A stretch of DNA of 64,000 nucleotides, taken from positions 1 to 64,000 of the forward strand of contig JAHHHA010000001.1 in assembly GCA_019359615.1 (NCBI GenBank). Reading direction: 5' to 3'. The notes beneath the pieces were generated by a model, which worked only from the letters and a program-made list of their open reading frames with translations, was not told the origin of the DNA and made no database searches. The translations under genes were made by a program, and so were the position numbers. This stretch comes from Cyanosarcina radialis HA8281-LM2 (GTDB lineage: Bacteria > Cyanobacteriota > Cyanobacteriia > Cyanobacteriales > CCAP-1448). Below are positions 45,101-61,200 of the stretch, piece by piece. Positions within the stretch are counted from its first letter, which is position 1. Every line of letters begins with the position of its first letter.

Positions 45101-47100
45101 GTTGGAAACTCGCTCCTTTATCGCCGCTGGCTTCTCCAACCTCTCTTGCGCCCTATTTGGTATTTGTCGATGAGTGCGGCTTGGGAGAAAGATTGCTCGA
45201 ACGACTCAAACTTAGAGGTGAAGAAGCGATCGCAGTTCGAGTTGGTACGCAGTTTGCCAAGTTGAGTCGCGATTCCTATACGATCGATCCTCTCGAAGCA
45301 GACGACTACAAGGCTTTAGTTAATACCCTGATAGCCCAACAGTTGCAGCCGAAAGCGATCGCTCATTTATGGAACGTCACCCCTGCTGAATCCTCATCCC
45401 CACTCGCCACTCATCACAGCTTGTTATTTCTCGCTCAAGCCTTGGGAAAACTAACTGACGAGCTACAAATTGCAGTTATCTCTAACAACTTACAGGAAGT
45501 AACTGGAGAAGAGTTACTAGACGCACAAAAAGCTACTTTACTGGGATTAGTAACAGTTATTCCCCAAGAATACCCAAATATTAAGTGTAGAAGCATCGAT
45601 CTCGTACTTCCTCAAACTGGAAGTAGAGGAGAAGAGAAAGCGATCGATCGATTGCTGCAAGAGTTACAGGCGACCTCACCCCGTTCGGCAAGCTCAGGGC
45701 AGCGCCCAACCCCTCGCAACCTCACCCCCAGCCCCTCTCCTACGAGGAGAGGGGAGCTAGGAGAGGGGGCCGGTTTCGACTCAGTTATTGCCTACCGAGG
45801 AAATCACCGCTGGGTGCAACACTTTGAACCCGTGCGCTTAGACACAGTTGCTTCACCAACCCCAAAATTAAGGGAACGTGGCGTTTACTTAATTACTGGT
45901 GGATTGGGAGGAATCGGTTTAGTTCTAGCAAAACATCTAGCTCAACAGGTACGAGCCAAATTAGTTTTAATCGGACGTTCTTGGTTTCCAAAAAGAGAAG
46001 AATGGCAACAATGGCTGGCAAATAACAACGATCGAGATGCGATCGCTCGCAAAATTCGCTATATCCAAGAAATTGAATCTTTAGGGGCAGAAGTTCTAGT
46101 TATTTCGACTGATGTTAGTAACATCGAACAAATGCAACAAGCTATCATTCAAGCCCAAAATCATTTCGGTCAATTTAATGGGGTTATTCATGCGGCTGGA
46201 GTGCCTGGAGGTGGTGCAATCCAGCGGAAAACGGCAGAAATGGCGGAAAGCATTCTCGATCCTAAAGTTCGAGGAACGCTGGTTCTGAAGAGAATTTTTC
46301 AAGATGTGCCGCTAGATTTCTTGGTTTTGTGTTCTTCTTTAACGGCGATCGAGGGCGGATTTGGACAGGCAGATTATGCCAGCGCTAATGCTTTTTTAGA
46401 TGCTTTTGCTCGTCAAGAAACTAACAGCAATGGCAGGTTTACTGTATCGATTAACTGGGATACCTGGCAAGAAGTGGGAATGGCAGTAGAGGCGTTAGAA
46501 GATGCTGCTTCTACCGAACAAATTGTAGGTTGGGTTGAACGGAGTGAAACCCAACACCCCGAAAATAGGGTTGAGGGCAAATCGATCCGACACCGCTTCA
46601 TTCAGCAAGGATTATCACCTCAAGAGGGCGTAACGGTATTCAGCCGAATTTTGGGAAGCGGACTTTCTCAAGTTTTGGTATCGAAGCGAGATTTGTCGGA
46701 TCTAAGTCAGCAGAATATGACTTTGAGCCTACCAACAGAAATTACCCCCAAACCTCAATCTCAGCATGGTGACATCCCTCCCCAAAACGAGATTGAAAGC
46801 ACTATCGGTGCTATTTGGCAGGAAATGCTAGGTAGAGAACGAGTCAGTATTCGGGATAACTTTTTCGATTTAGGTGGCGATTCGCTGCTGTTGGTGCAAG
46901 TTCGCAGCAAACTGCACGCAGCCTTAAATTGCGAGATTTCCACCGCTGACTTATTTGAATATCCGACGATCGCTACTTTAGCTGCATATCTCAGTCAAAA
47001 ACAGGCAGGGGAAACCTCTTTCGATCCCATCCGGGAACGAGCAAAACGGCAACAAGAAGCAGAAATGGAACTAATGCAGCAAAGTCGGAGAGGCGTATGA
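42163..47100 (+). CDS. Type I polyketide synthase, KS-AT-KR-ACP
   Basis: A 1,645-residue elongation-type module. KS (about 10-430) has TACSTSLVAV with Cys183, EAHGTGTPLGD and NIGHLDAAAG. AT (about 540-890) has GHSIGEY (Ser666) and SHAFHSPMM; the HAFH form predicts malonyl-CoA. KR (about 1,090-1,450) has GGLGGIG (about 1246), CSS and DYASAN with Tyr1405. ACP has GGDSL with Ser1574. There is no DH, ER or loading domain, so the beta carbon becomes hydroxyl. The last 25 residues (RERAKRQQEAEMELMQQ) resemble a docking helix. Six repeat-derived segments are in frame: KS-AT linker, two in AT, post-AT, inside the KR, and post-KR. The frame stays open. Confidence 0.95.
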   Translation: MTSSEISNSIEGIAIIGMAGRFPGAKNIDEFWENLRDGIESISWFTDEELLAAGINSNALIDENYIKAGANLENIDLFDADFFGFNPQEASRIDPQHRIFLECAWEALEDAGYDSQTYKDKIGVYAGVGWNGYLLFNVAPDRQFLESAIGYQTLLGNDKDFLTTRVSYQLNLKGPSIDVQTACSTSLVAVSMACQSLLAYQCDLALAGGITVSAIPKTGYLYQEGGILSPDGHCRAFDAEAKGTVPGHGAGIVVLKRLEEAIADGDCIHAVIRGAAINNDGAMKVGYTAPSVDGQAEVIAEALALAGIEPETISYIEAHGTGTPLGDPIEIAALTQVFGASTDKQGFCALGSVKTNIGHLDAAAGVAGLIKTVLALKHQLIPPSLHFQQPNPKIDFSHSPFYVNHQLQEWKSNGHPRRAGVSSFGIGGTNAHVVLEEALLGERERGREGERERKYQLLVLSAKTSSALGGATENLVAYLQKHSDRNLADVAYTLQVGRRSFPHRRMVVCRDLEDAIEVLKSQDSQSFTEDGKTPLLAFMFPGQGTQYVGMGKELYRTEPVFQEQIDRCCQLLEPHLGLDLRSLIYPDGDDRKSSSIESPNTALTPPAASLSQAWERGRGEGKRGTEAAEKLKPTAIAQPALFVIEYALAQLWMSWGISPQAAIGHSIGEYVAATLAGVFSLEDALTLVAARGRLMQQIPSGAMLSVALSEEEVRGWLKNPESSPHPALSGTPLPSLGEGKGVRANSTLSIAAINAPNSCVVSGTEEAIALFQEELSSQGISCRRLHTSHAFHSPMMDGILAAFREEVKKIKLHSPSIPFISNLTGTWITAAQATDPNYWAQHLRQTVRFSAGISQLLEDPNRILLEVGPGNTLCTLASKQSSGVALASLRHPQQQQSDVAFLLNTLGKLWLSGVKIDWSGFYAHQRRYRLPLPTYPFERQRYWIEQKATDNGRGAMLCAPTEGGITQEKSDIADWFYVPSWKLAPLSPLASPTSLAPYLVFVDECGLGERLLERLKLRGEEAIAVRVGTQFAKLSRDSYTIDPLEADDYKALVNTLIAQQLQPKAIAHLWNVTPAESSSPLATHHSLLFLAQALGKLTDELQIAVISNNLQEVTGEELLDAQKATLLGLVTVIPQEYPNIKCRSIDLVLPQTGSRGEEKAIDRLLQELQATSPRSASSGQRPTPRNLTPSPSPTRRGELGEGAGFDSVIAYRGNHRWVQHFEPVRLDTVASPTPKLRERGVYLITGGLGGIGLVLAKHLAQQVRAKLVLIGRSWFPKREEWQQWLANNNDRDAIARKIRYIQEIESLGAEVLVISTDVSNIEQMQQAIIQAQNHFGQFNGVIHAAGVPGGGAIQRKTAEMAESILDPKVRGTLVLKRIFQDVPLDFLVLCSSLTAIEGGFGQADYASANAFLDAFARQETNSNGRFTVSINWDTWQEVGMAVEALEDAASTEQIVGWVERSETQHPENRVEGKSIRHRFIQQGLSPQEGVTVFSRILGSGLSQVLVSKRDLSDLSQQNMTLSLPTEITPKPQSQHGDIPPQNEIESTIGAIWQEMLGRERVSIRDNFFDLGGDSLLLVQVRSKLHAALNCEISTADLFEYPTIATLAAYLSQKQAGETSFDPIRERAKRQQEAEMELMQQSRRGV
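43483..43523. repeat. In-frame GAGAGAGG array, KS-AT linker of PKS1
   Basis: Tandem GAGAGGGAGA-type units encode LGERERGREGERERK just after the end of KS. Confidence 0.8.
43966..44030. repeat. In-frame palindromic repeat in PKS1 AT (N-terminal part)
   Basis: The core is CTCTCCCAAGCTTGGGAGAG. It encodes TALTPPAASLSQAWERGRG. Confidence 0.85.
44331..44393. repeat. In-frame palindromic repeat in PKS1 AT (C-terminal part)
   Basis: Encodes PHPALSGTPLPSLGEGKGVRA with the core CTCTCCCAAGCTTGGGAGAG. Another copy occupies the matching place in PKS2 (49416-49479). Confidence 0.88.
45017..45044. repeat. In-frame GTAGGGGCGCAATG palindrome, PKS1 post-AT
   Basis: A near-perfect inverted repeat, GTAGGGGCGCAA with TTGCGCCCCTAC, encodes GRGAMLCAPTE. 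Confidence 0.85.
45672..45771. repeat. In-frame composite repeat inside PKS1 KR region
   Basis: Contains CGTTCGGCAAGCTCAGG and a CTCTCCTACGAGGAGAG palindrome. It inserts about 33 Pro/Ser/Arg-rich residues in the structural half of the KR. Confidence 0.85.
46525..46580. repeat. In-frame GTTGGGTTgaac repeat, PKS1 KR-ACP region
   Basis: GTAGGTTGGGTTGAAC and GTGAAACCCAAC. It encodes VGWVERSETQHPENRVEGK. Confidence 0.85.
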
Positions 47101-47317: not shown

Positions 47318-50300
47318 ATGAGTCAGCAATTGAAGGGTATTGCAATTATTGGGATGGCTGGTAGGTTTCCAGGGGCGAAAAATATCGATCGCTTTTGGCA
47401 AAATCTTCGCGATGGGGTGGAATCGATTTCCGACTTCACCGATGAGGAGTTACTTGCTTGTGGTGTAGATCCAGCCTTATTGAAAGAACCTAACTACGTC
47501 AAAGCTGGGTTTGTTTTAGAAGATATCGAGAAGTTTGACGCTCAATTCTTCGATTGCTCTCCCAGAGAAGCGGAAATCATGGACCCGCAACACCGAATTT
47601 TCCTCGAATGTGCCTGGGAAGCTTTAGAAAATGCCGGATACGACCCCAAAACCGATAATAACCTGACGGGGGTATATGCCGGAGCTAGCATGAGCGACTA
47701 CTTGCTCAACAACCTCAGTTCCCACCGCCAACTCGTCAAGTCTCTAAATTGGCAAATCGGGATGGGCAACGAACAGGAATTTTTGCCGACGCGAGTTTCT
47801 TATAAATTAAACCTCAAAGGTCCGAGTTTGAGCGTCGGGACGGCTTGTTCCACCTCTCTAGTTGCCGTCCATCTAGCATATCGCGCCTTACTGAGTTACG
47901 AATGCGATCTGGCGCTGGCTGGCGGAATTACTGTTCAAGTGCCTCACCGAGAAGGTTATCTTTACGAACCGGGGGGGATACTTTCGCCCGATGGCAAGAC
48001 TCGCGCCTTCGATGCTAACGCCCAAGGAGGTCCCTACGGTAACGGGGTGGGGATTGTCGTCCTCAAACGATTAGCGGATGCAGTTGCCGATCGCGATCGC
48101 ATTTATGCTGTCATTAAGGGTTCTGCCATCAATAACGACGGGGCGACGAAGGTAAGTTATACCGCCCCTAGTGTAGCAGGGCAAGCTGAAGTTATTGCCT
48201 CTGCCCAAGCGATCGCGGGTTTTGAACCGGAGAGTGTCACCTACATTGAAACTCATGGTAGCGGTACGGCTTTAGGCGATCCGATCGAAATTAGGGCTTT
48301 AGAAAAGGTGTTTCGCGCCCGCACTCAGAAATCGAGTTTTTGCGCCATTGGTTCGGTGAAAACTAACGTCAGCCATTTAGATACAGCCGCCGGAGTCGCA
48401 GGATTAATTAAAACGGTTCTGGCGCTAGCAAATCAAGAAATTCCGCCTAGTTTGCACTTCGATCGACCAAATCAAGAAATCGACTTTGCTAACAGTCCTT
48501 TCTACGTCAATACCAAGTTATCTGAGTGGCACAGCAACGGTACGCCCCGTCGTGCTGGAGTGAGTTCCTTTGGCATTGGAGGAACGAACGTACATTTGGC
48601 GTTGGAGGAGAGTGAGGGGAGGGCGAAGAGTGAGGAGAGGAAACACCAATTGTTAGTGCTTTCGGCGAAAACGAGTTCGGCTTTAGAAGTAGCTACGGAG
48701 AATTTAATCGCACATCTGCAACAGCATCCCGATTTAAATCTGGCTGATGTGGCTTACACTTTGCAAGTCGGTCGTCATGCTTTTAACCATAGACGGGTAG
48801 TAGTTTGCCAAGATCTACCAGATGCGATCGCTGCCTTGCAAGATCCTAAACGAGTTTTGACTGGCAACCAGGAAACTAAAGAACGTCCCATCGCCTTCAT
48901 GTTCTCTGGCTTGGGAACTCAGTACGTCAACATGGGGCGAGAACTATACCAATTTGAACCCACATTTCAAGCAGAATTCGATCGCTGTTGCACTTTCCTC
49001 AACCCCCTTTTGGGCATCGATCTCAAGAAAGTAATCTATCCTCCCAACAGCGAGCCAGAGACGAAGGACAAGCAAACGGGAATCGATTTGCGACAAATGC
49101 TGGGGCGCAGTTTGGAACCGCCAGATGCAGCTAGCGAAAAGCTAAATCAAACTTATCTGACTCAACCAGCCATCTTTGTCATCGAGTATGCCTTAGCCAA
49201 GTTGTGGCAATCTTGGGGAATTGAGCCAATAGCTGCGATCGGTTACAGCATAGGGGAATATGTCGCCGCTACGCTAGCGGGAGTCTTGTCTTTAGAAGAT
49301 GCTCTCACCCTAGTCGGTAAAAGAGCGCAAATGATTCAAGACTTGCCAGCGGGGGCAATGCTAGGGGTTCCTTTGTCGGAAGAGGAAGTGAGAGGTTGGT
49401 TGAAGCCTGAATCCAGCCCTCACCCTGCCCTATCGGGCACCCCTCTCCCAAGCTTGGGAGAGGGGACGGGGGTGAGGGCAAACCCCACACTCTCTGTGGC
49501 GGCGATTAATGGTGCGTCGATGTGCGTGGTGGCTGGAACTACAGAGGCGGTGGAGGAGTTGGCAAGTCGTTTGACTGCTGAAGGGATTGCTTGTCGTCAG
49601 TTACAAACTTCTCATGCTTTTCACTCTGACATGATGACAGCGATCGCACCTGCTTTTACGGAGTTAGTCAAAACTGTCAAACTATATCCTCCACAAATTC
49701 CCTATATTTCTAACGTTACGGGGACTTGGATTACACCCGAACAAGCAACAGATCCACACTACTGGACAAAACATCTGTGCCAAACAGTTAGGTTTGCTGA
49801 TGGCTTGCAGGAGTTAGAGCGAAAGTTGAGTCCGATTTTGTTAGAAGTCGGTACGGGACAGACTTTGAGTAGTTTAGCACTGCAATCTTTATCGGGCGAT
49901 CGCACTATTTTACCTTCGCTGCCATATTCTTACGAAAGGCGATCGGATCTGGCTTTCATTCTCAACAGTTTAGGACAACTTTGGTTGGCAGGAGTCAAGA
50001 TCGATTGGGCGAAATTTCACAGCCATAATGTCTGTTATCGCGTTGCCTTACCAACCTACCCGTTTGAACGCCAAAGATACTGGATAGAAGCGAAGTCAGA
50101 AGTCAGGAGTCAGGAGTCAGGAGTAAATAATGATTCTTTAGAGATTTGGCAATCTTTGGTATTAGCAGGTCAAAATCGAGCTAAGGAAGGACTAGCAGGA
50201 TTTGACGAGCAAACTTACGAAGAAAAAAGAGAGCAACTAGATCGTTTGTGTCTTGCCTATATTAACCTTTGTTTTAGACGTTTGGGTACTTTTAATGAGG

Positions 50301-51616
50301 CAGACGATCGCTACACTTGCGAACAGTTATGTCAACAATGTCAGATTATTCCTCGATATTGGGAATTGATCGATCGATGGCTGAATATCTTAGTAGAACA
50401 AGGAGACTTAAAGCAAAACCGAGAACTATTTGCTGATTTATCTACTGTAGCGACAGAGACTATTTCTGAACTTGTCGATCGAGTCAAAATTGCTTATGAA
50501 GACACTTCCCAACAAATAGAACTTCTCCAACTCTATGGCGAGAATCTACCAGCGATCTTGACTGGCAAACAAGAACCTTTAGAGTTGCACGTTTCTACTT
50601 TAGTGAAAGAAGGTGAATTTAGCATTCAAAACTTGCCTTCTAATAACTACTACAACTCGATTTTACGGGAGTGTTTAGCTTCAGTAGTTAAAGCCTTACT
50701 GCCCGAAAAAAGACTCAGAATATTAGAAGTTGGGGCTGGAACTGGAACTGCTACCGCCGAACTGCTGCCGATTTTGCCAGCCGAACAAACCGAATATACC
50801 TTTACTGATGTCGGTAGTTTCTTCTTAAATGCTGCCAAAAAGAAATTTAGCAACTATCCATTTGTGTCGTATCGGTTGCTAGATATCGAAACTCCTTTAT
50901 CTGCTCAAGGTTACGAAGAACAAAGCTTTGATGTCATAGTTGCTTTCAAAGTGCTGCACGTAGCCCGAAATATCACAGAAATCCTCGATCGCGTGCGTTC
51001 TTTACTAGTTCCTGGAGGCTTGTTACTGCTGTGGGAAACCACTCAAGCTACTTTAGAAGCTGAAGTCATCGACGCTTTAATTATGAAACCGATCGAAGAT
51101 GAAACTGGCAAGCGCAATATGGGCAATCCCTTTTTATCGGCGGAAAAATGGCAAGAATCGCTCAAAGATTGCGGATTTGTAAAAGTAGCTGCTTTTTCGG
51201 AATTTAAACCTTTCCGAGAACACGTTATTGCGGCACAGGCAGGAAAGGAAATATTGCAGGCTTTAGAACCTAAGATCGCGGTTTATTCTTCACACGCACG
51301 CCCTAACTTAAAGAATGAATATGTCGCTCCTACTAACGACATCGAACGACGAATTACTGAGATTTTTCAGGAATTATTAGGCATAGAAACAGTAGGGATT
51401 CACGACAGCTTCTTTGCTTTAGGTGGAGATTCTTTAACGGGAACCGTTCTAGTTTCTCAATTACGGAAATGTTTTGAAGTAGAACTGCCAGTTAGAGCTT
51501 TGTTTGAAGCCCCATCTGTAGCTGAGTTGGCTTTGGTTATCGAAGAGATGCTAATCGAGGAATTAGAAGGTTTACCGGAAGAAGAGGTAGATCTTGAAAT
51601 ACAGCAGGTTCGTTAA
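47318..51616 (+). CDS. Type I polyketide synthase, KS-AT-MT-ACP
   Basis: A 1,432-residue module. KS (about 5-430) has Cys177 in TACSTSLVAV, ETHGSGTALGD and NVSHLDTAAG. AT (about 520-880) has SHAFHSDMM but its nucleophile motif is GYSIGEY (Ser about 643), with Tyr for the usual His. After the AT comes a helical stretch and a class I SAM methyltransferase (about 1,100-1,300) with LRILEVGAGTGTATAEL. The ACP has GGDSL with Ser1372. There is no KR or DH, so the beta-keto group is left. Repeat inserts lie in the KS-AT linker, inside AT and after AT. Its position before the FkbH-like cassette suggests it uses hydroxymalonyl-ACP. Confidence 0.93.
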   Translation: MSQQLKGIAIIGMAGRFPGAKNIDRFWQNLRDGVESISDFTDEELLACGVDPALLKEPNYVKAGFVLEDIEKFDAQFFDCSPREAEIMDPQHRIFLECAWEALENAGYDPKTDNNLTGVYAGASMSDYLLNNLSSHRQLVKSLNWQIGMGNEQEFLPTRVSYKLNLKGPSLSVGTACSTSLVAVHLAYRALLSYECDLALAGGITVQVPHREGYLYEPGGILSPDGKTRAFDANAQGGPYGNGVGIVVLKRLADAVADRDRIYAVIKGSAINNDGATKVSYTAPSVAGQAEVIASAQAIAGFEPESVTYIETHGSGTALGDPIEIRALEKVFRARTQKSSFCAIGSVKTNVSHLDTAAGVAGLIKTVLALANQEIPPSLHFDRPNQEIDFANSPFYVNTKLSEWHSNGTPRRAGVSSFGIGGTNVHLALEESEGRAKSEERKHQLLVLSAKTSSALEVATENLIAHLQQHPDLNLADVAYTLQVGRHAFNHRRVVVCQDLPDAIAALQDPKRVLTGNQETKERPIAFMFSGLGTQYVNMGRELYQFEPTFQAEFDRCCTFLNPLLGIDLKKVIYPPNSEPETKDKQTGIDLRQMLGRSLEPPDAASEKLNQTYLTQPAIFVIEYALAKLWQSWGIEPIAAIGYSIGEYVAATLAGVLSLEDALTLVGKRAQMIQDLPAGAMLGVPLSEEEVRGWLKPESSPHPALSGTPLPSLGEGTGVRANPTLSVAAINGASMCVVAGTTEAVEELASRLTAEGIACRQLQTSHAFHSDMMTAIAPAFTELVKTVKLYPPQIPYISNVTGTWITPEQATDPHYWTKHLCQTVRFADGLQELERKLSPILLEVGTGQTLSSLALQSLSGDRTILPSLPYSYERRSDLAFILNSLGQLWLAGVKIDWAKFHSHNVCYRVALPTYPFERQRYWIEAKSEVRSQESGVNNDSLEIWQSLVLAGQNRAKEGLAGFDEQTYEEKREQLDRLCLAYINLCFRRLGTFNEADDRYTCEQLCQQCQIIPRYWELIDRWLNILVEQGDLKQNRELFADLSTVATETISELVDRVKIAYEDTSQQIELLQLYGENLPAILTGKQEPLELHVSTLVKEGEFSIQNLPSNNYYNSILRECLASVVKALLPEKRLRILEVGAGTGTATAELLPILPAEQTEYTFTDVGSFFLNAAKKKFSNYPFVSYRLLDIETPLSAQGYEEQSFDVIVAFKVLHVARNITEILDRVRSLLVPGGLLLLWETTQATLEAEVIDALIMKPIEDETGKRNMGNPFLSAEKWQESLKDCGFVKVAAFSEFKPFREHVIAAQAGKEILQALEPKIAVYSSHARPNLKNEYVAPTNDIERRITEIFQELLGIETVGIHDSFFALGGDSLTGTVLVSQLRKCFEVELPVRALFEAPSVAELALVIEEMLIEELEGLPEEEVDLEIQQVR
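48607..48640. repeat. In-frame GAGGGGAGGGCGAA-type insert, PKS2 KS-AT linker
   Basis: It encodes ESEGRAKSEER at the same linker where PKS1 holds the GAGAGAGG array. Confidence 0.65.
49416..49479. repeat. In-frame palindromic repeat in PKS2 AT
   Basis: Encodes PHPALSGTPLPSLGEGTGVRA with the CTCTCCCAAGCTTGGGAGAG core. It has the same family and site as 44331-44393 in PKS1. Confidence 0.88.
50094..50124. repeat. In-frame AGTCAGG tandem repeat, PKS2 AT-MT linker
   Basis: Tandem AGTCAGG-type units encode SEVRSQESGV. The same unit is found in the NRPS gene (61499-61530). Confidence 0.8.
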
Positions 51617-51646
51617 AATTTTGCTCGACTAGAAGATTTTAATAGA

Positions 51647-51675
51647 ACCACAGATAAACACAGATAAACACAGAT
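51647..51675. repeat. 10-bp tandem repeat ACAGATAAAC
   Basis: The array lies between PKS2 and the FkbK-like gene. The ATG at 51674 is formed inside its last unit (ACAGATG). Confidence 0.8.
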
Positions 51676-52543
51676 GAATGTTATGGAGATTAAGGTAGTT
51701 GGTGTAATTGGAGCGGGTGTTATGGGTGTAGGGTTAGCCCAAAACCTCGCTCAAACAGGTCATAGCGTGATGCTTTTGGATATTTCAGATGAAGTTCTAA
51801 AACGCGCCAAACGAGAGATTAAAAACAATATCCGCTTTCAAGGTTTTTTTCAGAAGGATAAAACCTCAAGCAATCCTGATGAGATTTGCGATCGCATTAA
51901 GTTTTCGACAGATTACCAGGTTTTACGAGAAGCTGAATTTGCGATCGAAAATGTGACTGAAAAATGGCATATTAAAGAGGAGGTTTATAAAACAATAGAT
52001 AGTATTTGCCCTCCAGAATCAGTTTTTGCGGCTAATACTTCTGCGATTTCTATTACTCACATTGCTTCAGTCACTCAGCGCCCAGTTAAAGTCATTGGTA
52101 TGCACTTTATGAACCCAGTACCAATGAAGCCGATGGTAGAAGTAATTCGCGGATATCACACCAGCGAAGAAACTATTGCAACCGCCCAACAACTATTATC
52201 TCAAATGGGCAAAGAATCGATCGTTGTCAACGATTCGCCTGGGTTTGTGTCTAACCGGATATTGATGTTGACGATTAACGAAGCAGTGTTTCTGTTGCAA
52301 GAGAAAGTAGCTGAAGCTGCTGAAGTCGATCGAATTTTTAAAACCTGTTTCGGTCACAAAATGGGACCTTTAGAAACTGCGGATCTAATTGGGTTAGATA
52401 CAATTTTGTTCTCGATCGAAGTCCTTTACGAAAGCTTCAACGACAGTAAGTATAGACCGTGTACTTTACTCAAAAAAATGGTCGATGCGGGATTGTATGG
52501 TCAAAAAAGCGGACAGGGTTTCTACACCTACAATAAAATTTAA
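51674..52543 (+). CDS. 3-hydroxyacyl-CoA dehydrogenase-like, FkbK type
   Basis: The 289 residues have the Rossmann loop VIGAGVMGVGLAQNLAQ, the catalytic HFMNPVPMKPMVEV with its His, and NDSPGFVSNRIL. It is close to 3-hydroxybutyryl-CoA dehydrogenases. In methoxy- and hydroxymalonyl-ACP pathways the FkbK/ZmaG-type member oxidises glyceryl-ACP at its 3-hydroxyl. The neighbours (ACP, acyl-CoA dehydrogenase, FkbH) are the other parts of that pathway, so this role is likely. A second in-frame ATG lies at 51683. The first one is within a tandem repeat. Confidence 0.88.
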   Translation: MNVMEIKVVGVIGAGVMGVGLAQNLAQTGHSVMLLDISDEVLKRAKREIKNNIRFQGFFQKDKTSSNPDEICDRIKFSTDYQVLREAEFAIENVTEKWHIKEEVYKTIDSICPPESVFAANTSAISITHIASVTQRPVKVIGMHFMNPVPMKPMVEVIRGYHTSEETIATAQQLLSQMGKESIVVNDSPGFVSNRILMLTINEAVFLLQEKVAEAAEVDRIFKTCFGHKMGPLETADLIGLDTILFSIEVLYESFNDSKYRPCTLLKKMVDAGLYGQKSGQGFYTYNKI

Positions 52544-52575
52544 CCTCTGGTGCGAACCAATAACCCATCAATTCT

Positions 52576-52604
52576 ATCTGTGTTTATCTGTGTTTATCTG
52601 TGGT
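52576..52604. repeat. 10-bp tandem repeat ATCTGTGTTT before the ACP gene
   Basis: The unit is the reverse complement of that at 51647-51675 and lies 18 bases before the ACP start codon. Confidence 0.8.
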
Positions 52605-52621
52605 CTTTATTCTCTTTCATC

Positions 52622-52873
52622 ATGGAACAAACCAAAACTAAAATCAAACAATTTCTGGCTCAATTTTTCGGCAGCCATCAACTTCAAGATAATGAAGATA
52701 TTTTTGCTCTCGGATTTGTCAATTCCATGTTTGCCATGCAATTAGTTCTATTTATCGAGCAAGAATTTAAGGTGGCGATCGAAAACGAAGATCTCGATTT
52801 TGAAAACTTTAGAACGATCGAGGCGATGTCAAATTTAATAGAACGTAAAATGGCTGTCTTAGCCGGAAAATGA
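52622..52873 (+). CDS. Discrete acyl carrier protein, FkbJ type
   Basis: The 83 residues start MEQTKTKIKQFLAQFFG. They contain DNEDIFALGFVNSMFAMQLV, where Ser35 is the phosphopantetheine site (GFVNS in place of GxDSL), then FKVAIENEDLDFENFRTIEA. It would carry the glyceryl and later hydroxymalonyl group during extender synthesis. A longer upstream frame is repeat-derived, so I use the ATG at 52622. The stop overlaps the next gene (ATGA), indicating coupled translation. Confidence 0.9.
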   Translation: MEQTKTKIKQFLAQFFGSHQLQDNEDIFALGFVNSMFAMQLVLFIEQEFKVAIENEDLDFENFRTIEAMSNLIERKMAVLAGK

Positions 52874-54027
52874 CGATGAAGATCGAACTAACTCCACAAC
52901 AAAAAGACGCTCAAACCGCATTTAGAGAATTCGTCAATGACGAAATTATTCCTTATGCAGATTGGTGCGATCGTGAAGAGCATACACCTCCAAATTTAAT
53001 TCAAAAGCTAGCTGAAAAAGAGTATTTAGGTGCTTTAATACCGACAGAATTTGGCGGTAGCAATCTCGATCCGATCGCTTATGGATTGCTGAATGAAGAA
53101 ATTGGACGCGGATGTTCTTCTTTGCGGAGTTTGCTGACAGTTCATAGCATGGTTGCTCGTGCTGTGTTGAAGTGGGGAAGTCGATCGCAAAAAGAATACT
53201 GGCTGCCTAAATTAGCCACTGGTGAAGTAATTGCTGCTTTTGCTTTAAGCGAACCTCATGTCGGTAGCGATGCTAAAAGTATAGAAACCACAGCTAAGTT
53301 AGCAGATAATTCTTACGTTTTAAACGGACAAAAAAAATGGATTACTTACGGACAAATAGCCGATGTGTTTCTAGTTTTTGCTGTTTGTGAAGGTCAATAT
53401 TGCGCTTTTTTAGTAGAAAAGGATCGTCCAGGGCTAGCAATTAAATCAATTTCAGTAATGGTAGGCGTAAAAGCTTCCATGCTAGCCGAATTGCACTTAG
53501 ATGATTGTGTAATTCCTTCAGATAACTTAGTTGGCAAACCTGGTTTTGGTTTTGCTTATGTAGCTTCTTCAGCTTTAGATTGGGGTAGATATAGCGTCGC
53601 TTGGGGTTGCGTTGGTATTGCTCGAGCTTGTTTAGAAGCTTCTCTGAAATATACAGATGCAAGACAGCAATTTAATGTTTATTTGAAAGAACATCAATTA
53701 ATCAGACAAATGATTTCGGAGGCGATCGCTAATATTAAAGCTGCTAGATTGTTGTGCTATCAGGCTGGTTATCTCAAACAAGTTGGCGATCCTAAATCGA
53801 TTCAAGAAACATCGATCGCTAAATATTTTGCCTCAGTAATTGCTAATAAAGTAGCCAGCGATGCCGTGCAAATTCATGGTGGCAATGGTTGCAGTAGCGA
53901 ATATTCAGTTCAGAGATATTGGCGAGATGCAAAAATTATGGAAATTATTGAAGGTAGTACCCAGATTCAACAAATTACGATCGCTGATTATGGGTATCAG
54001 GAATTTTTGAATAATGACCACAGATAA
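52870..54027 (+). CDS. Acyl-CoA dehydrogenase, FkbI type
   Basis: The 385-residue flavoprotein has the family layout: LAEKEYLGALIPTEFGG, FALSEPHVGSDAKSIETTA, GQKKWITYGQIADVFLVFA, ARQQFNVYLKEHQLI and IHGGNGCSSEYSVQRYWRDA. The C-terminal MEIIEGSTQIQQ closes the domain. In the Fkb-type route FkbI oxidises the aldehyde or acyl-ACP to the malonyl-like half. Coupled to the ACP gene by a 4-base overlap, so they should be made in fixed ratio. Confidence 0.9.
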   Translation: MTMKIELTPQQKDAQTAFREFVNDEIIPYADWCDREEHTPPNLIQKLAEKEYLGALIPTEFGGSNLDPIAYGLLNEEIGRGCSSLRSLLTVHSMVARAVLKWGSRSQKEYWLPKLATGEVIAAFALSEPHVGSDAKSIETTAKLADNSYVLNGQKKWITYGQIADVFLVFAVCEGQYCAFLVEKDRPGLAIKSISVMVGVKASMLAELHLDDCVIPSDNLVGKPGFGFAYVASSALDWGRYSVAWGCVGIARACLEASLKYTDARQQFNVYLKEHQLIRQMISEAIANIKAARLLCYQAGYLKQVGDPKSIQETSIAKYFASVIANKVASDAVQIHGGNGCSSEYSVQRYWRDAKIMEIIEGSTQIQQITIADYGYQEFLNNDHR

Positions 54028-54035
54028 ATACAGAT
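54017..54035. repeat. 10-bp repeat ACAGATAAAT before the FkbH-like gene
   Basis: Two units lie at the junction and the ATG at 54034 is part of the last one. Confidence 0.7.
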
Positions 54036-55125
54036 GTTAGCGCGAGCTTTTGGTGAGAAGATGATTAGCGTACAATCAGAGCCAACTAAAATTAAGGCAG
54101 ATTCTCAAACAACGATTAAATGTGTAGTTTGGGATTTAGATAATACGATTTGGGATGGCGTGTTGTTAGAAGGCGATCGCCTGTCGGTCAGACAGAGTGT
54201 AGTTGATGCGATTCAAACTCTAGATCGTCGCGGTATTCTCCAATCTATTGCCAGCAAAAACGATGCAGAAGCAGCGATAAATAAGCTCCTAGAAATTGGA
54301 CTGTATGAATATTTCCTTTATCCTCAAATTAATTGGAATCGCAAATCGTATTCGATCCAAGAAATTTCCAGGTTGCTCAATATTGGCATCGACAGTATAG
54401 CTTTTATCGACGATAGTTCGTTTGAATTAGAAGAAGTCAAATACTCTCTGCCGCAAGTTCTCTGCATTAATGCCTTAGATATAGATAAAATCGTCGATTT
54501 GCCTGCCATGAATCCCAGATTTATTACCGAGGATTCTAAGCAGCGTCGCTCGATGTATCTCAGCGATATCAAACGCCAACAAAAAGAAGCAGAATTTGTC
54601 GGAACGCCAGATGAATTTCTCGCTACCCTCCAAATGAAACTAACAATATCTCCCGCAGGCGAATCGGACTTACAACGAGCCGAAGAACTCACAGTTAGAA
54701 CCCACCAACTAAATACGACTGGTTACACCTATTCCTACGAAGAACTCAATTATTTTAGCCGATCGCCCCAACACAAACTCCTAATCGCCAGTTTAGAAGA
54801 CAAATATGGCACATATGGAAAAATCGGCTTAACCCTCCTCAAATGCCAAGAAAATACTTGGACGATCGAACTATTACTAATGTCTTGTCGCGTCATGTCT
54901 AGAGGCGTAGGAACCGTCACGATCAATCACATCATGCGCTTAGCCAAAGATAACCAGGTAAAACTGCTCGCCAAATTCCTCCCCAACGATCGCAATCGGC
55001 AGATGTACATCACCTACAAATTTGCTGGATTCAAAGAAATCGATCGACACGAAAAACTAACCATCCTCGAAAACGATCTCACCCGCATTCAACCCTTACC
55101 CGACTACCTCCAACTCCTCACCTAG
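54034..55125 (+). CDS. FkbH-like glyceryl-ACP forming protein
   Basis: The 363 residues start the HAD-type domain at VVWDLDNTIWDGVLL with Asp34. A GNAT-like region follows with THQLNTTGYTYSYEEL and LLMSCRVMSRGVG. This two-part layout is FkbH/TubE, which loads glycolytic 1,3-bisphosphoglycerate onto an ACP as glyceryl-ACP. The first ATG is inside a repeat without a ribosome site. The ATG at 54061 (MISVQSEPTK) follows GGTGAG and could be the real start. It completes an FkbHIJK set with no FkbG. Confidence 0.93.
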   Translation: MLARAFGEKMISVQSEPTKIKADSQTTIKCVVWDLDNTIWDGVLLEGDRLSVRQSVVDAIQTLDRRGILQSIASKNDAEAAINKLLEIGLYEYFLYPQINWNRKSYSIQEISRLLNIGIDSIAFIDDSSFELEEVKYSLPQVLCINALDIDKIVDLPAMNPRFITEDSKQRRSMYLSDIKRQQKEAEFVGTPDEFLATLQMKLTISPAGESDLQRAEELTVRTHQLNTTGYTYSYEELNYFSRSPQHKLLIASLEDKYGTYGKIGLTLLKCQENTWTIELLLMSCRVMSRGVGTVTINHIMRLAKDNQVKLLAKFLPNDRNRQMYITYKFAGFKEIDRHEKLTILENDLTRIQPLPDYLQLLT

Positions 55126-55201: not shown

Positions 55202-58200
55202 ATGTCCAAAACCAAAGCCGAAATCCTCACCAGGCGATCGCAACTTTCCCCAACCAAACAAGCCCTACTAGCCCAACGCTTGCAGGGCAAAATCGCCCCC
55301 ACGCCAGAAACCATCCCTCCACGTTCTCACACCCAAAACATCCCCCTTTCCTTCGCCCAACAACGGCTGTGGTTTCTCCACGAATTCGATCCAGACAACG
55401 CCTTTTATAACGAACCCATAGCTGTCAAACTCCAAGGTTCCGTCAACATCACCGCTTTAGAACAAAGCCTCGATCGAATCGTCTCGCGCCACCAAGCCCT
55501 CCGAACTAATTTTTCCACTGTAGACGGACAGCCAATTCAAATTATTCGCCCCAGTTTGACAATCCTTGTAGCAGTCACCAACCTACAAGAACTTTCAGCT
55601 TCAGAACAGCAAAACGCGATCGCCCAAATAGTAATTTCTGAAACTCATCAACCCTTCGACTTAACCGAAGATCCCCTACTTCGCGTCCGACTCTTACAAC
55701 TAAACGAAACTGAAAACGTTCTCTTACTCGTCGCCCACCATATTGTCTTCGATGGTTGGTCTTTAGGAGTATTAGTACGGGAACTAGCTGAATTTTATAA
55801 ATCTTTCTCTAGAAATATACCTTTATCTTTACCAGAATTACCCATTCAATATGCTGATTTTGCTATTTGGCAGCGCCAATGGTTGCAAGGAGAAGTATTC
55901 GATCGCCAATTAGCTTACTGGCAAGAACAACTTCAAGATCTACCAATTTTAGAACTTCCTACTGATAAACCGCGATCGCCCGTCCAAAACTTTTGCGGGG
56001 CTAAATATTTTTTCAACCTCTCGTTAGAACTATCTGAGAGCCTTAAAAACTTAAGTCAGCAAACAGATACTACTTCGTTTATGACTTTGCTGGCAGCGTT
56101 TCAAGTCTTGCTGCATCGCTACGCCGCCCAAGATGAAATCGTTGTCGGTACAGTAATTGCTAACCGCAACCGCCCAGAAATTGAACCCGCGATCGGCGTT
56201 TTTGTCAACACCTTAGTATTGCGTACTTATTTAGGCGATAACCCCACATTTCGCCAATTACTAGCCAGAGTCAAAGAAGTTACTTTAGAGGCTTACGCTC
56301 ATCAAGACTTGCCGTTTGAAAAGTTAGTAGAAGCCCTCAACCCAGAACGCAATTTAAGCAGATCTCCTTTGTTTGAGGTGATGTTTGCGCTGAATAATGC
56401 TCCCCTGCCGCCTTTAGAGCTTGACGGCTTGCAGATGACACCGCTGGACATCGATCCCGGTATCGCCAAGTTCGATCTCGATTTGAGTTTGACAGAGACA
56501 GAAGCAGGATTAGCCGCTGCTGTAGAGTATGACACCGATCTATTTTCTGCCCAAACGATCGCCCGGATGATGAGTCATTGGCAAACGTTACTTGCCAGCA
56601 TCGTCAGCAATCCCGAACAGCATATAGCAGACTTACCTTTACTTACAGATGTAGAACGCCAGTGGTTGTTAGTGGAATGGAGTGGGAGAGAGGGAGATGG
56701 GGAGATGGGGAGATGGGGAGATGGGGAGATGGGGAGAGAGGGAGATGGGGAGATGGGGAGATGGGGAGATGGGGAGAATTATTCCTGTATCCATCAGTTG
56801 TTTGAAGCGCAGGTAGAAAAGACACCAAATGCGATCGCGGTTGTCCTTGAGGAAGAACATCTAACTTACCAAGAACTCAACGAACGAGCGAACCATCTCG
56901 CCCATTACCTGCAACAACTCGGTGTCAAACCAGAAGTTTTAGTAGGAATTTGCGTCGAGCGTTCTTTAGACATGGTAGTAGGAATTCTGGCAATTCTCAA
57001 AGCTGGCGGCGCTTACGTTCCCTTAGATCCTAGCTATCCTCAAGAGCGTTTAGCCTTCATGCTGGCAGACTCGCAAGCGCCAGTATTGCTAACTCAATCT
57101 CATTTAGTCACCACCCTACCCAAACATAACGCCCAAGTAGTCTGCCTCGATACCGAAGATGTAGGGGCGCAATGCAATAGCCCTGGCGGGCATGGCTTCG
57201 CTAGTGCGCCCCTACCAACCCAAAACCCAACCAACTTGGCTTACGTCATCTACACCTCTGGTTCTACAGGACAACCTAAAGGGGTAATGGTGGAACATCG
57301 CAGCTTAGTTGATGCTTATCTAGCTTGGGAAAAGGCTTACCAATTGCGATCGCTTCACACTCACCTGCAAATGGCTAACTTCTCCTTTGATGTCTTTGCC
57401 GGAGATTTAGTCAGGGCGCTGTGTTCTGGTGGCAAGTTGGTACTTTGTCCTCGCGATTTCTTGCTATCTCCTAGAGAACTTTACGATTTGATGCGTCGGG
57501 AAGGGGTTGACTGTGCCGAATTCGTCCCGGTGGTGTTACGCCACCTGATCCAATACCTCGCCGACACCGGACAAAACCTTGATTTTATGCGCTTGCTGGC
57601 TTGCGGTTCCGATAGTTGGTATGTAAGAGAGTATCAGAAATTCCAACAGTTTTGCGGTGCAGATACTAGATTAATTAACTCTTTTGGCGTAACGGAAGCG
57701 ACGATCGATAGTGCTTATTTTGAAAGTCCGCTACTGGAGCTTGCAGCAGAGCAGTTAGTCCCGATCGGACGACCTTTTACCAATACAGAAATTTATATTT
57801 TAGATGCGCGATCGCAGCTAGTACCAATTGGCGTATTTGGCGAACTCTATATCGGGGGTGTAGGGGTAGCCAGAGGATATCGCGATCGCCCCGAATTGAC
57901 AGCAGCTAACTTTATCCCCCATCCCTTCAGTGCGGAAGCTGGAGCGCGATTGTATCGCACTGGAGATTTAGCCCGCTGGCTGCCCGATGGCAATATCGAG
58001 TTTCGCGGACGAGTTGACTATCAAGCCAAAATTCGGGGTTATCGCATCGAATTAGGCGAAATTGAAGCATTTATTCAAGAATATCCCGCAGTTAAAGAAG
58101 TTGCTGCCTTAGTGCGCGAAGATACGCCAGGAGAAAAACATTTAGTTGCCTATATCGCTCCTAACCTAAACTTGGCAGATTTGCGGGTATTTCTCACCGA

Positions 58201-61200
58201 AAAGTTACCCAGTCAGATGATGCCATCTAGCTTCGTGTTTTTAGACTCGCTTCCCCTGACTCCAAATGGCAAAATCGATCGCCGCGCCCTCCCCATTCCC
58301 GATCGATTGGAATTACCCGGCAGTTTTGCCCCACCTCGTAATTCAATAGAAGCAGCTTTGTCCGAAATTTGGTCAGAAGTTCTCAACTTGCCGCAAGTAG
58401 GAATATCCGACAACTTTTTTGAGTTGGGTGGAGATTCGATCTTAACCATAGCTGTTATCTCTAAAGCCGATCGACAAGGTTTGCGTCTCACCCCCAAGCA
58501 ACTATTTCAATATCAAACGATCGCGGAATTAGCCCTAGTAGTCGATACCGCGCCAGAAATTGTCGCCGAACAAGGTGTGGTAACGGGCGATGTTCCTTTA
58601 ACTCCGATTCAGCACTGGTTCTTTGCAGAACAGTTTCAGGAAATGCACCACTGGAATCAATCATTGTGGCTATCAGTTAAACCTGGGACGAATTCGCAAC
58701 TTTTAGAAACTGCGATCGCTAGTTTATTAACTCATCACGATGCCTTACGAATGCGGTTCGTACAAACAGGCGATTGTTGGCAACAAATCTGTCTGAAACC
58801 AGATGGATCTGTACCTCATTTTAAATATGATTTGTCTCACTTATCAAGTTCAGAACAAAAGTTAGAAATTCAGAGATTAGAAGCCGAGTTACAAGCTAGT
58901 TTCAATCTAGAATCTGGTTGTCTTTGGCGATCGGCTTTCTTTGACTGCGGCAGTCACAGTCGCTTGCTGATAATCGTTCATCACTTAGTAATTGATGGTG
59001 TCTCTTGGCGAGTCTTACTAGAAGATTTACAAACAGCCTACGAGCAACTGAGTCAAAATCGAGCGTTGGCGCAGCCTGTTGTGGAGCAACGTATCGCTTT
59101 ACCGCCCAAAACCACTTCATTCAAACAATGGGCAGAAAAACTGGCTGTCTACGCTCAGTCCGCAGAACTCATGCGAAATCCGGTGACGATGAACTACTTT
59201 GCTGGCCCTCACCCTGCCTCCGGCTCCCCTCTCCCAAGCTTGGGAGAGGGGTTGGGGGTGAGGGCTGAATTCGATCTCAACTCAGAACGAGATTTCTGGT
59301 TCCAGGAACAGCCAGGGAACGACTTACCTGTGGATTTTCCTGGAGGAAGCAATACAGTTGCCGACAATCAAACGATCGAAGTCAAATTGAGCAGCCGGGA
59401 AACCAAAGCATTACTGCAACAAGTTCCTGCTGCTTATCGCACCCAGATCGATGACGTGCTTTTGACAGCCTTAGTCCAAGCCTTTGCCGAGTGGACGGGG
59501 GAACCTGCTTTATTACTAGATTTAGAAGGGCACGGACGAGAAGAAATCTTTCCCGACGTGGATGTATCGAGAACTGTAGGTTGGTTTACGACTGTATTTC
59601 CGGTGTTTTTAGATTTGGGCGAAATCGAGATAACTGCTGCTAGGAAAGCTTTACAAACAATCAAAGAACAACTGCGAGGCATCCCCAATCGAGGATTTAA
59701 CTACGGGGTACTGCGGTATCTGTCTCAAAACCTGGCGAATGAATATCTCCTGCGGAGACGCTGCGCGAACGCGGCTACACAAACAAAGTCCGCCTGCGCG
59801 GACTTCAAGAATGAAAATAAAGCAACAGTTAGTTTCAATTATTTAGGACAATTCGACCAAAGCTTTACTCGCTCTTCTTTATTTGAATTAGACGAAGATT
59901 CACCCAGTCTGCCCTGTAGTCCTTTGGGGAATCGTTCTTACGTGCTGGAAATTGACAGTCATATCTCTGAAGGGCAATTAAAAACAAGCTGGACTTACAG
60001 CCAAACCTTGCAGCGCCACGAGACTATTGAAAATCTCGCTCAAAGTTTTATCGAGAAACTGCGATCGCTCATCGCCCACTGTCAGTCTCCCGATGCTGGA
60101 GGCTATACCCCATCAGATTTTCCCCTCGTTCGGTTTACGCAAGCACAACTCGATACTACCTTCAAAAACATCGAAGACGCTTACCCTTTATCTCCCATGC
60201 AACAGGGGATGCTGTTTCACACCCTGTTAGCCCCAGAATCTGGAGTATATGTCGATGTCCTCAGATTCGATTTGCGGGGAGTATTCGATGTAGCTGCCTT
60301 TATGAAAGCCTGGGAATTAGCGATCGAAAGACATCCGGTTCTGAGAACTGCTTTTGTCTGGAAAGATTTAGAAAAACCCCTGCAAGTAGTTCTGCCCCAA
60401 GTGCAATTTCCTTGGCAAGAATATGACTGGCGAGAACTAACTTTAGAGGAACGAACCGAACAGCTAGAGGATTTGCTACAAACCGATGAAAAGCAAGGCT
60501 TTGAACTTTCTCAAGCGCCTTTGATGCGTTTTCACTTAATCCGTCAAGCCGAGGATAGCTATCACTTTATTTGGACTGCTCATCACTTATTACTCGATGG
60601 CTGGTCTTTACCTCTAATCTTTCAGGAAGTTGTTGCCTACTATCAAGATGCAAATTTATCTTTACCGCCATCTCCTCCTTATCGAAACTACATCGCTTGG
60701 TTGCAGCAACAAGACTTATCCAAAGCTGAAGCCTTTTGGCGCGAGAAATTAAAGGGTTTTACCGCCCCCATCCGGTTGTGGGTAGACAAGCATCGTCGCT
60801 CTCGCTCTTACCAAGTGGGAAGCTACGCCCAGCAGCAAATATATCTATCTTCAGCTACTACAGCCGCATTGAATTCTCTAGCTAAACAGCAGCATTTCAC
60901 TCCCAATATTTTGATGCAGGGAGTTTGGGCTATCCTCTTAAGTCGCTACAGTCGGGAATCGGATGTAGTATTTGGAACGGTTGTCTCCGGTCGTCCTTAT
61001 ACCTTAAAAAATGTAGATTCGATGGTGGGGAATTTTATCAATACCCTGCCAGCCAGAATCCAAGTAGAACCAGAAGCATTTCTCCTTTCTTGGCTGCAAC
61101 AACTCCAGCAACAGCAACTAGAAGCACAACATTACGAATACAGTCCGCTGTCAGAAGTCCAAAAGTGGAGCGATATTCCTCAAGGCGTGTCGTTATTTGA

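Follow-up and report, generated by a model that had tools for sequence, protein, structure and literature searches.

Described hydroxymalonyl-ACP systems and the Cyanosarcina locus

The methoxymalonyl-acyl carrier protein (ACP) cassettes of the FK520 and ansamitocin pathways (FkbGHIJK) include FkbH, FkbI, FkbJ and FkbK. SorC of soraphen is of the acyltransferase (AT)-ACP-O-methyltransferase (O-MT) type, StiD and StiE are of the in-line O-MT type, and zwittermicin reportedly keeps its hydroxyl free, with no methyltransferase (MT) in that module. We analyzed a stretch of 64,000 nucleotides from Cyanosarcina radialis HA8281-LM2 (the window, G000:C21:1-64000, part of the 405,911-base contig C21), in which an FkbK-FkbJ-FkbI-FkbH-like cassette (51674-55125) lies directly behind PKS2, a polyketide synthase (PKS) protein (47318-51616, + strand) with an MT domain between its AT and its ACP. 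Unlike in the FK520 and ansamitocin cassettes, no FkbG-type gene was found on contig C21, and the MT of PKS2 resembles C-methyltransferases (C-MTs). In our reading the likeliest PKS2 unit, and a rather probable one, is an alpha-hydroxy-alpha-methyl-beta-keto unit, within a cyanochelin-like siderophore.

The same four enzyme types are described for zwittermicin (ZmaN, ZmaD, ZmaG and ZmaE; PMC5355916), and butyrolactol A is a published case of a polyol whose cluster has the four genes and for which no O-MT gene was found nearby (PMC5355916). Proteins of the SorC/HliQ type (HliQ of haliangicin is an AT-ACP-O-MT protein; PMC4768178) resemble PKS2 in that an MT is joined to a hydroxymalonyl-handling AT, and cyanobacterial and Streptomyces versions of them were found in loci L086, L107, L092, L113 and L116; in these versions, however, the MT is of the FkbM type and follows the ACP, whereas that of PKS2 is of the C-MT type and lies ahead of the ACP, behind the AT. 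Herpetosiphon aurantiacus has hydroxymalonyl-ACP genes (PMC3368417), and its locus (L102) likewise carries the cassette beside modules whose AT has a GYS motif, but these are ketoreductase (KR) modules in which no MT was detected.

Cyanochelin B, a characterized siderophore of Leptolyngbya sp. NIES-3755, contains a 2,3-dihydroxy-2-methyl unit, in which a quaternary carbon bearing oxygen and methyl (about 77 and 24 ppm) adjoins a CH-OH; Ox, cMT and KR appear in the domain key given for its PKS/nonribosomal peptide synthetase (NRPS) system (PMC12628792). Its authors suspect, without confirmation, that the hydroxyls contact iron, which would be a novel chelating motif (PMC12628792). We found a luciferase-type monooxygenase, a CurJ-like MT and a KR in the cyanochelin B PKS CcsC, and on this reading of the domains the three would make the alpha-hydroxy-alpha-methyl carbon. 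Both clusters are cyanobacterial NRPS/PKS systems with two aspartate hydroxylases, matching Asp- and Gly-type partial codes, a terminal reductase and a PKS C-MT; they differ in that cyanochelin B has an oxygenase in the PKS and a KR, whereas here the oxygen would arrive with the extender and no KR was found. The (incomplete) feature table for the two stretches that carry the cyanochelin B cluster shows no FkbHIJK genes, and a plasmid-wide search for FkbH at E 1e-60 listed no such record.

Neither a cyanobacterial FkbH-type hydroxymalonyl pathway nor a module combining hydroxymalonyl with a C-MT was found in the literature covered, mainly titles and abstract openings, and such reports may exist in print. 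The portions of PMC8739492 and PMC3445576 that were covered hold neither, and those on fatuamide A (PMC11877528) and the lusichelins (PMC12210259) mention neither FkbH nor hydroxymalonyl. An origin of the portoamide alpha-hydroxyl from the cassette of Phormidium sp. LEGE 05292 (L056) was considered and rejected: FkbH and hydroxymalonyl are absent from the portion of the main text of PMC13252402 that was covered, and its domain key has an OX monooxygenase.

The FkbK-FkbJ-FkbI-FkbH cassette

The sequence-only reading had described four consecutive FkbK-, FkbJ-, FkbI- and FkbH-like genes without FkbG, and this description holds: the genes are intact, all on the + strand, with domain matches in each, and the four homologues adjoin in one operon. 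They encode an FkbK-like 3-hydroxyacyl dehydrogenase (51674-52543; 3HCDH_N and 3HCDH, 197 and 112 bits), an FkbJ-like free-standing ACP (52622-52873; PP-binding, 30 bits; serine motif NSMFAM at 52721-52738), an FkbI-like acyl-ACP dehydrogenase (52870-54027; acyl-CoA dehydrogenase domains) and an FkbH-like glyceryl transferase/phosphatase of the HAD family (54034-55125; WDLDNT at 54130-54147). FkbH scored 258 bits on TIGR01686 (the NCBIfam FkbH domain, cut-off 146.65 bits) and is the sole cassette protein named in this way; FkbK reached no NCBIfam cut-off among the matches listed, and the FkbI-like protein scored 183 bits against the solved FkbI (1r2j), with general acyl-CoA dehydrogenases scoring higher (best 276 bits). 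By sequence, FkbI and FkbK are of the general acyl-CoA and 3-hydroxyacyl dehydrogenase types, and their names come from the operon context. The listed open reading frame (ORF) of the ACP starts at GTG 52550, but ATG 52622 is the more likely start, because the copy on contig C50 of the same genome has Met at the same place and the sequence ahead of it consists of an intergenic repeat. Two copies of this repeat, made of ATAAACACAGAT units, flank fkbK in opposite orientation at 51646-51675 and 52576-52605, and the second gives the ACP ORF an apparently spurious N-terminal extension.

Related loci were taken from a scan across 84,980 species, one genome each (the best 80 of 260). The K-J-I-H order is not due to chance, since it is complete in 64 of these 80 loci; of the other 16, ten are truncated where the contig stops, and in six a gene is missing or an additional ACP hit appears. 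By record title they come from Nostoc, Scytonema, Fischerella, Phormidium and other cyanobacteria, from Herpetosiphon, Streptomyces and Firmicutes and from sulphur-bacterium assemblies; the order thus recurs in other cyanobacteria and is not unique to the Cyanosarcina genome. Class-level comparisons were made with 388 genomes from the class of the window genome, and counts from the class-wide FkbH and MT searches, own-genome searches apart, are lower bounds. The FkbH matches fell into two separate groups, at least 10 with 59-100% identity and the rest with at most 36%. The first group occurs in only 9 of the 388 genomes, so the cassette is scattered across the class and not universal.

FkbG is, we assume, a member of PF01596. 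PF01596, PF13578 and PF05050 were searched over the whole genome, and none of their 2, 8 and 10 matches, respectively, lies on contig C21, which bears out the lack of an FkbG candidate nearby. When O-MT queries from six loci of this genome were compared with the ORFs of the relatives, a single match was obtained, a gene inside the L048 cassette that Pfam assigns as a TylF O-methyltransferase.

A second FkbKJIH cassette of the same genome lies on C50 (L005 14121-20000 and L006 1-16213), with an FkbH 64% identical to that of the window. An NRPS of the fatty acyl-AMP ligase type is probably the first protein of its cluster. The GYS module there is composed of ketosynthase (KS), AT, ACP and thioester reductase and has no MT; inserted in one NRPS adenylation domain are a luciferase-like monooxygenase and, behind it, an FkbM-type methyltransferase.

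PKS2 as the module that takes the unit

By Pfam, PKS2 is a KS-AT-MT-ACP protein without a KR. Its AT (48863-49897, + strand) carries GYSIGEY at 49241-49261, SHAFH at 49610-49624 and ACR at the RXR site, whereas the ATs of PKS1 and PKS3 have GHSIG. The part of the zwittermicin work drawn on found GYS in the two ATs for ACP-linked units and GHS in the five for units linked to coenzyme A (CoA), and proposed a hydrophobic RXR site (MXW/MXM) as a mark of ACP recognition (PMC4207774). The PKS2 AT shares GYS with ZmaA, and its best PDB match is the crystallized hydroxymalonyl-ACP-specific ZmaA-AT (4qbu, 246 bits); it differs from ZmaA in having HAFH and ACR in place of GAAH and MCM.

An AT tree of 114 rows was built by a quick method with Shimodaira-Hasegawa-like approximate likelihood ratio test (SH-aLRT) support. 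L122, L124 and L126 (on contigs shared with L088, L085 and L094) were left out, as were pieces shorter than 250 residues, below 100 bits or without the motif, and a duplicate, L170_16016 (= L088), was retained. A single clade (SH-aLRT 95) held 64 of the 66 GYS ATs, among them PKS2, free-standing ATs, AT-ACP-FkbM proteins and ATs of other phyla; L171 and L082_509 fell outside it, and the ATs of PKS1 and PKS3 were placed in GHS clades. At the first RXR position, 63/66 GYS ATs have A, V or I, and the 48 GHS ATs mostly a polar or charged residue; the third position is Arg in 58/66 GYS but also in 39/48 GHS ATs and does not discriminate. The ACR of PKS2 has the hydrophobic first residue as well as the third Arg, and among PKS1, PKS2 and PKS3 only PKS2 combines such a first residue with GYS.

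The association between motif and cassette extends to whole genomes. A DNA pattern encoding GYSxGE[YF]VAA was found in 13 of the 388 genomes, including all 9 with an FkbH orthologue, where it lies at most 6.4 kb from FkbH (9/9 versus 4/379 of the others; Fisher p 1.4e-15, kinship ignored). Two of the four remaining genomes carry FkbK and FkbJ, G350 beside its GYS module and G003 beside a PKS. The other two, G363 and G205, have a GYSMG AT in KS-AT proteins followed by a luciferase-type domain (L201 and L202) and no FkbH orthologue was found in either genome, so that GYS alone is not proof of hydroxymalonyl use. GYSxGE[YF]VAA would be a useful though imperfect marker for hydroxymalonyl-using modules. 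Within the loci, the ATs next to the cassette comprised 46 GYS and 7 GHS, as compared with 11 GYS and 20 GHS elsewhere in the same loci (nine ATs were left out, as they lie on the reverse strand or in loci where FkbK could not be placed). The adjacency rule is imperfect too, since in L095 a GHS AT with a cMT lies directly beside FkbK.

The AT motif, the AT tree, the match to ZmaA-AT and the genome-wide co-occurrence all support the earlier proposal of hydroxymalonyl-ACP delivery: as judged from these sequences, the cassette probably supplies hydroxymalonyl-ACP, with PKS2 as the probable acceptor module.

Two related arrangements were also observed. A free-standing GYS acyltransferase lies near FkbK in L044, L047, L049, L051, L074 and L079, which suggests loading of hydroxymalonyl in trans. 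Cyanobacterial AT-ACP proteins are located just downstream of FkbH in L086 (11108), L107 (4779), L092 (2586) and L082 (11185), three of them with an FkbM-type methyltransferase, and these proteins resemble HliQ of haliangicin.

The PKS2 methyltransferase domain

The MT domain of PKS2 (50285-51307, + strand) has the S-adenosylmethionine (SAM) motif LEVGAGTG at 50723-50746. Conservation places its catalytic dyad at His1214, the end of AFKVLH (50942-50959), and Glu1240, in LLLWETT (51023-51043); the corresponding His and Glu of CurJ, assigned in part from conservation, are taken to be the dyad of that enzyme. PKS C-MTs use a catalytic His-Glu dyad (PMC9821293), and both residues are kept in 22/22 MTs of GYS modules and 15/15 of GHS modules. 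The best PDB matches by sequence were the C-MTs CurJ (155 bits), AprA MT2 and DisA. An AlphaFold2 model (14 sequences) gave CurJ, AprA, DszA, citrinin synthase, PsoF, LovB and CalH as its top structural matches (Z 29.6 to 22.1, the first over 309 residues), and Foldseek gave the same order for the first six. Below the eight rows of PKS C-MTs came general methyltransferases, with Z of at most 21.9 over shorter stretches, mostly of fewer than 200 residues. In-line O-MTs of the StiD/StiE/CurL type were not among the listed PDB matches by sequence or fold, which speaks to their absence from that list only. Judged by its sequence, its predicted fold and its dyad, the PKS2 MT is a member of the PKS C-methyltransferase family; its identity with CurJ is ~30%.

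In the class-wide search the family members stood apart, with 45-58% identity and at least 266 bits, as compared with at most 205 bits and 41% identity for other MTs; two partial matches, with 46% and 51% identity, are exceptions. Some members reside in GHS-AT modules with no cassette within the 20 kb fetched (L158, L159, L160, L161, L165, L166 and L169). An MT tree was then considered, whose rooting depends on three distant references; it excludes identical sequences, pieces shorter than 190 residues and one of the two halves into which the L170 domain is split. The MTs of GYS modules formed one clade in 18 of 21 cases (support 100/97; L171, L083 and L164 fell outside), and this clade is nested among the MTs of GHS modules, which suggests that hydroxymalonyl modules acquired their MTs by recruitment of C-MT-like domains.

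Methylation at carbon or at oxygen

It had been proposed that the PKS2 MT may methylate the hydroxyl after incorporation, in an in-line route to a methoxy branch. The data do not support this. The domain is C-MT-like by sequence, fold and dyad, and its nearest relatives outside the GYS clade belong to malonyl-type modules without a cassette, where no hydroxymalonyl hydroxyl is expected, which favors methylation at carbon. This comes close to the clear C-MT placement that would speak against the proposal, but because the tree holds no characterized O-MT domain, the O-methylation claim is weakened and not fully refuted. O-methylation is thus the less likely of the two readings, and an alpha-hydroxy-alpha-methyl-beta-keto unit remains the one that we favor.

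Several observations weigh against this preference. The MT model is only moderate (mean pLDDT, the predicted local distance difference score, 67.6). CurJ, like citrinin synthase and PsoF, has an active-site Tyr; this residue, which we tentatively placed in LYKD of CurJ, is not kept in the MTs of either GYS or GHS modules at the aligned column, where the GYS MTs mostly have V, I or R, although the alignment there is gappy and uncertain. In addition, Q or K replaces the N before VLH in 13/22 GYS but only 1/15 GHS MTs, and the GYS-module MTs carry an RNM motif of their own, which we keep as a point for oxygen; neither RNM nor Q/K is shared with CurJ. The GYS-module MTs, most of which form a separate clade, are not random draws from the family, so that their chemistry may have changed. 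When the 66 GYS ATs were sorted by protein, 21 had a cMT, 13 an FkbM-type domain and 32 neither, and the two domains never occurred together (0/66; 4.1 expected, p 0.004, kinship ignored); this looks like functional replacement, although shared descent could also give it. Finally, the AT has HAFH where ZmaA has GAAH, and no siderophore receptor was seen among the cluster ORFs examined, no search having been aimed at one.

Three of these features, namely the clade of their own, the replacement of N by Q/K close to the dyad and the lack of any protein shared with FkbM domains, leave room for a doubtful reading in which a C-MT domain, once moved into hydroxymalonyl modules, came to methylate the alpha oxygen instead of the alpha carbon and now does the job of FkbG. 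The first alternative is that PKS2 extends with hydroxymalonyl and its MT O-methylates the alpha-hydroxyl in line, replacing FkbG and leaving a methoxy branch. It gains from the same three features, from the lack of an FkbG candidate on contig C21 and from the in-line FkbM-type domains, which could O-methylate, found next to this cassette elsewhere in the cyanobacteria; it nevertheless seems unlikely to us, since FkbG-less hydroxymalonyl pathways that keep free hydroxyls are described, as for butyrolactol A (PMC5355916), and the MT is otherwise of the C-MT kind. A second alternative has the MT silent or acting elsewhere, e.g., on the beta-enol oxygen or on a malonyl-derived unit, with the hydroxyl left free as in zwittermicin and butyrolactol. 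The 32 GYS ATs in proteins without a detected MT domain are in its favor, and a beta-enol would be available since PKS2 has no KR, but the intact SAM motif, both dyad residues and the retention of the MT across a clade of cassette modules make it quite improbable. Delivery of hydroxymalonyl to another module, with PKS2 using malonyl-CoA to give an ordinary alpha-methyl-beta-keto unit, would suit the malonyl-type HAFH motif and the second cassette on C50 with its own GYS module, but is very improbable given that PKS1 and PKS3 lack the GYS and hydrophobic RXR marks and have ATs of the GHS clades.

Proposed pathway and its implications

From homology to the known chemistry of these gene sets, FkbH would load a glycolytic three-carbon unit onto the ACP FkbJ and dephosphorylate it, and FkbK and FkbI would oxidize the bound unit to hydroxymalonyl-ACP. 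The PKS2 AT would take hydroxymalonyl from FkbJ and PKS2 would extend the chain with it; because PKS2 has no detected ketoreductase, the extension should leave an alpha-hydroxy-beta-keto thioester. Methylation of its alpha carbon by the PKS2 MT would then give the tertiary alpha-hydroxy-alpha-methyl-beta-keto unit. The downstream NRPS/PKS modules would incorporate amino acids, of which two are probably aspartates to be beta-hydroxylated by two TauD-family oxygenases, and the terminal reductase, perhaps with the adjacent aminotransferase, would release the product. In a cyanochelin-like siderophore the alpha-hydroxyl may help to bind iron.

If this is correct, cyanobacteria have two routes to an alpha-hydroxy-alpha-methyl carbon in siderophore-like peptides: in one, a luciferase-type oxygenase would oxidize a malonyl unit before methylation, as the cyanochelin B domains suggest, and in the other a hydroxymalonyl extender would bring the oxygen and be methylated at its carbon. 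A single AT clade with no MT, with an FkbM-type MT or with a C-MT-type MT forms a natural series that makes the choice of carbon or oxygen directly testable.

The wider cluster

The cluster begins with PKS1 (42163) and reaches beyond the window; the thioesterase at its far side ends near C21:91218. PKS1 (42163-47100, + strand) is a KS-AT-KR-ACP protein with a malonyl-type AT (GHSIGEY, 44152-44172). NRPS1 (55202-63469, + strand), the first NRPS of the peptide part, has two adenylation domains, two peptidyl carrier proteins and five condensation-type stretches, and a major facilitator superfamily transporter (40105-41409, - strand) adjoins the cluster and is an exporter by position only. The cyanochelin-type features, i.e., TauD-family Asp beta-hydroxylases together with the Asp-type modules NRPS3 and NRPS5, are present. 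Of the two TauDs, one stands alone and the other is fused; they share 55% and 49% identity with BAU16062, the hydroxylase of cyanochelin B. Over the six code positions compared, NRPS5 agrees throughout with BAU16012 and with BAU16061, which is described as Asp-specific (PMC12628792), and NRPS3 departs from both at a single position; the partial code of NRPS4 equals that of BAU16060 (Gly). The cluster ends in a terminal reductase followed by an aminotransferase. By analogy with cyanochelin B, the product is likely a cyanochelin-like siderophore. Among the relatives, Nostoc sp. UHCC 0926 carries the cassette with an MT module, Gloeocapsopsis dulcis AAB1 has the cassette, a GYS AT, a cMT and a KR beside a TonB siderophore receptor, and a Chroococcidiopsis locus has a salicylate synthase in the same 31 kb.

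Further genes in and beside related cassettes

FkbK and FkbJ adjoin PKS modules without FkbH or FkbI next to them in L162, L163, L167 and L168 (genomes G350, G003 and G371); G003 and G371 gave no FkbH match among those listed in the class search, and in L168 an acyl-CoA dehydrogenase lies further downstream. Pfam was applied to ten of the 42 extra ORFs in or beside cassettes and gave cupin/JmjC (three), an Asp/Asn hydroxylase, a carbamoyltransferase, a beta-lactamase-like protein, a sigma factor, BtrH, one ORF without family and the L048 O-MT. The cupin/JmjC-type dioxygenases are located in L047 (6506-8588), L074 (8896-9858) and L080 (8955-9836), with L049 added by similarity only; the Asp/Asn beta-hydroxylase family gene is in L054 (7893-8780), with L060 by similarity only; and the carbamoyltransferase adjoins a GYS-cMT module in L080 (4412-6472), with L081 by similarity only. 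A single assembly-line protein in L163 (8114-13441, - strand) joins a glycerol-3-phosphate acyltransferase, PPDK_N (pyruvate phosphate dikinase), a weak condensation domain, an adenylation domain and a carrier.

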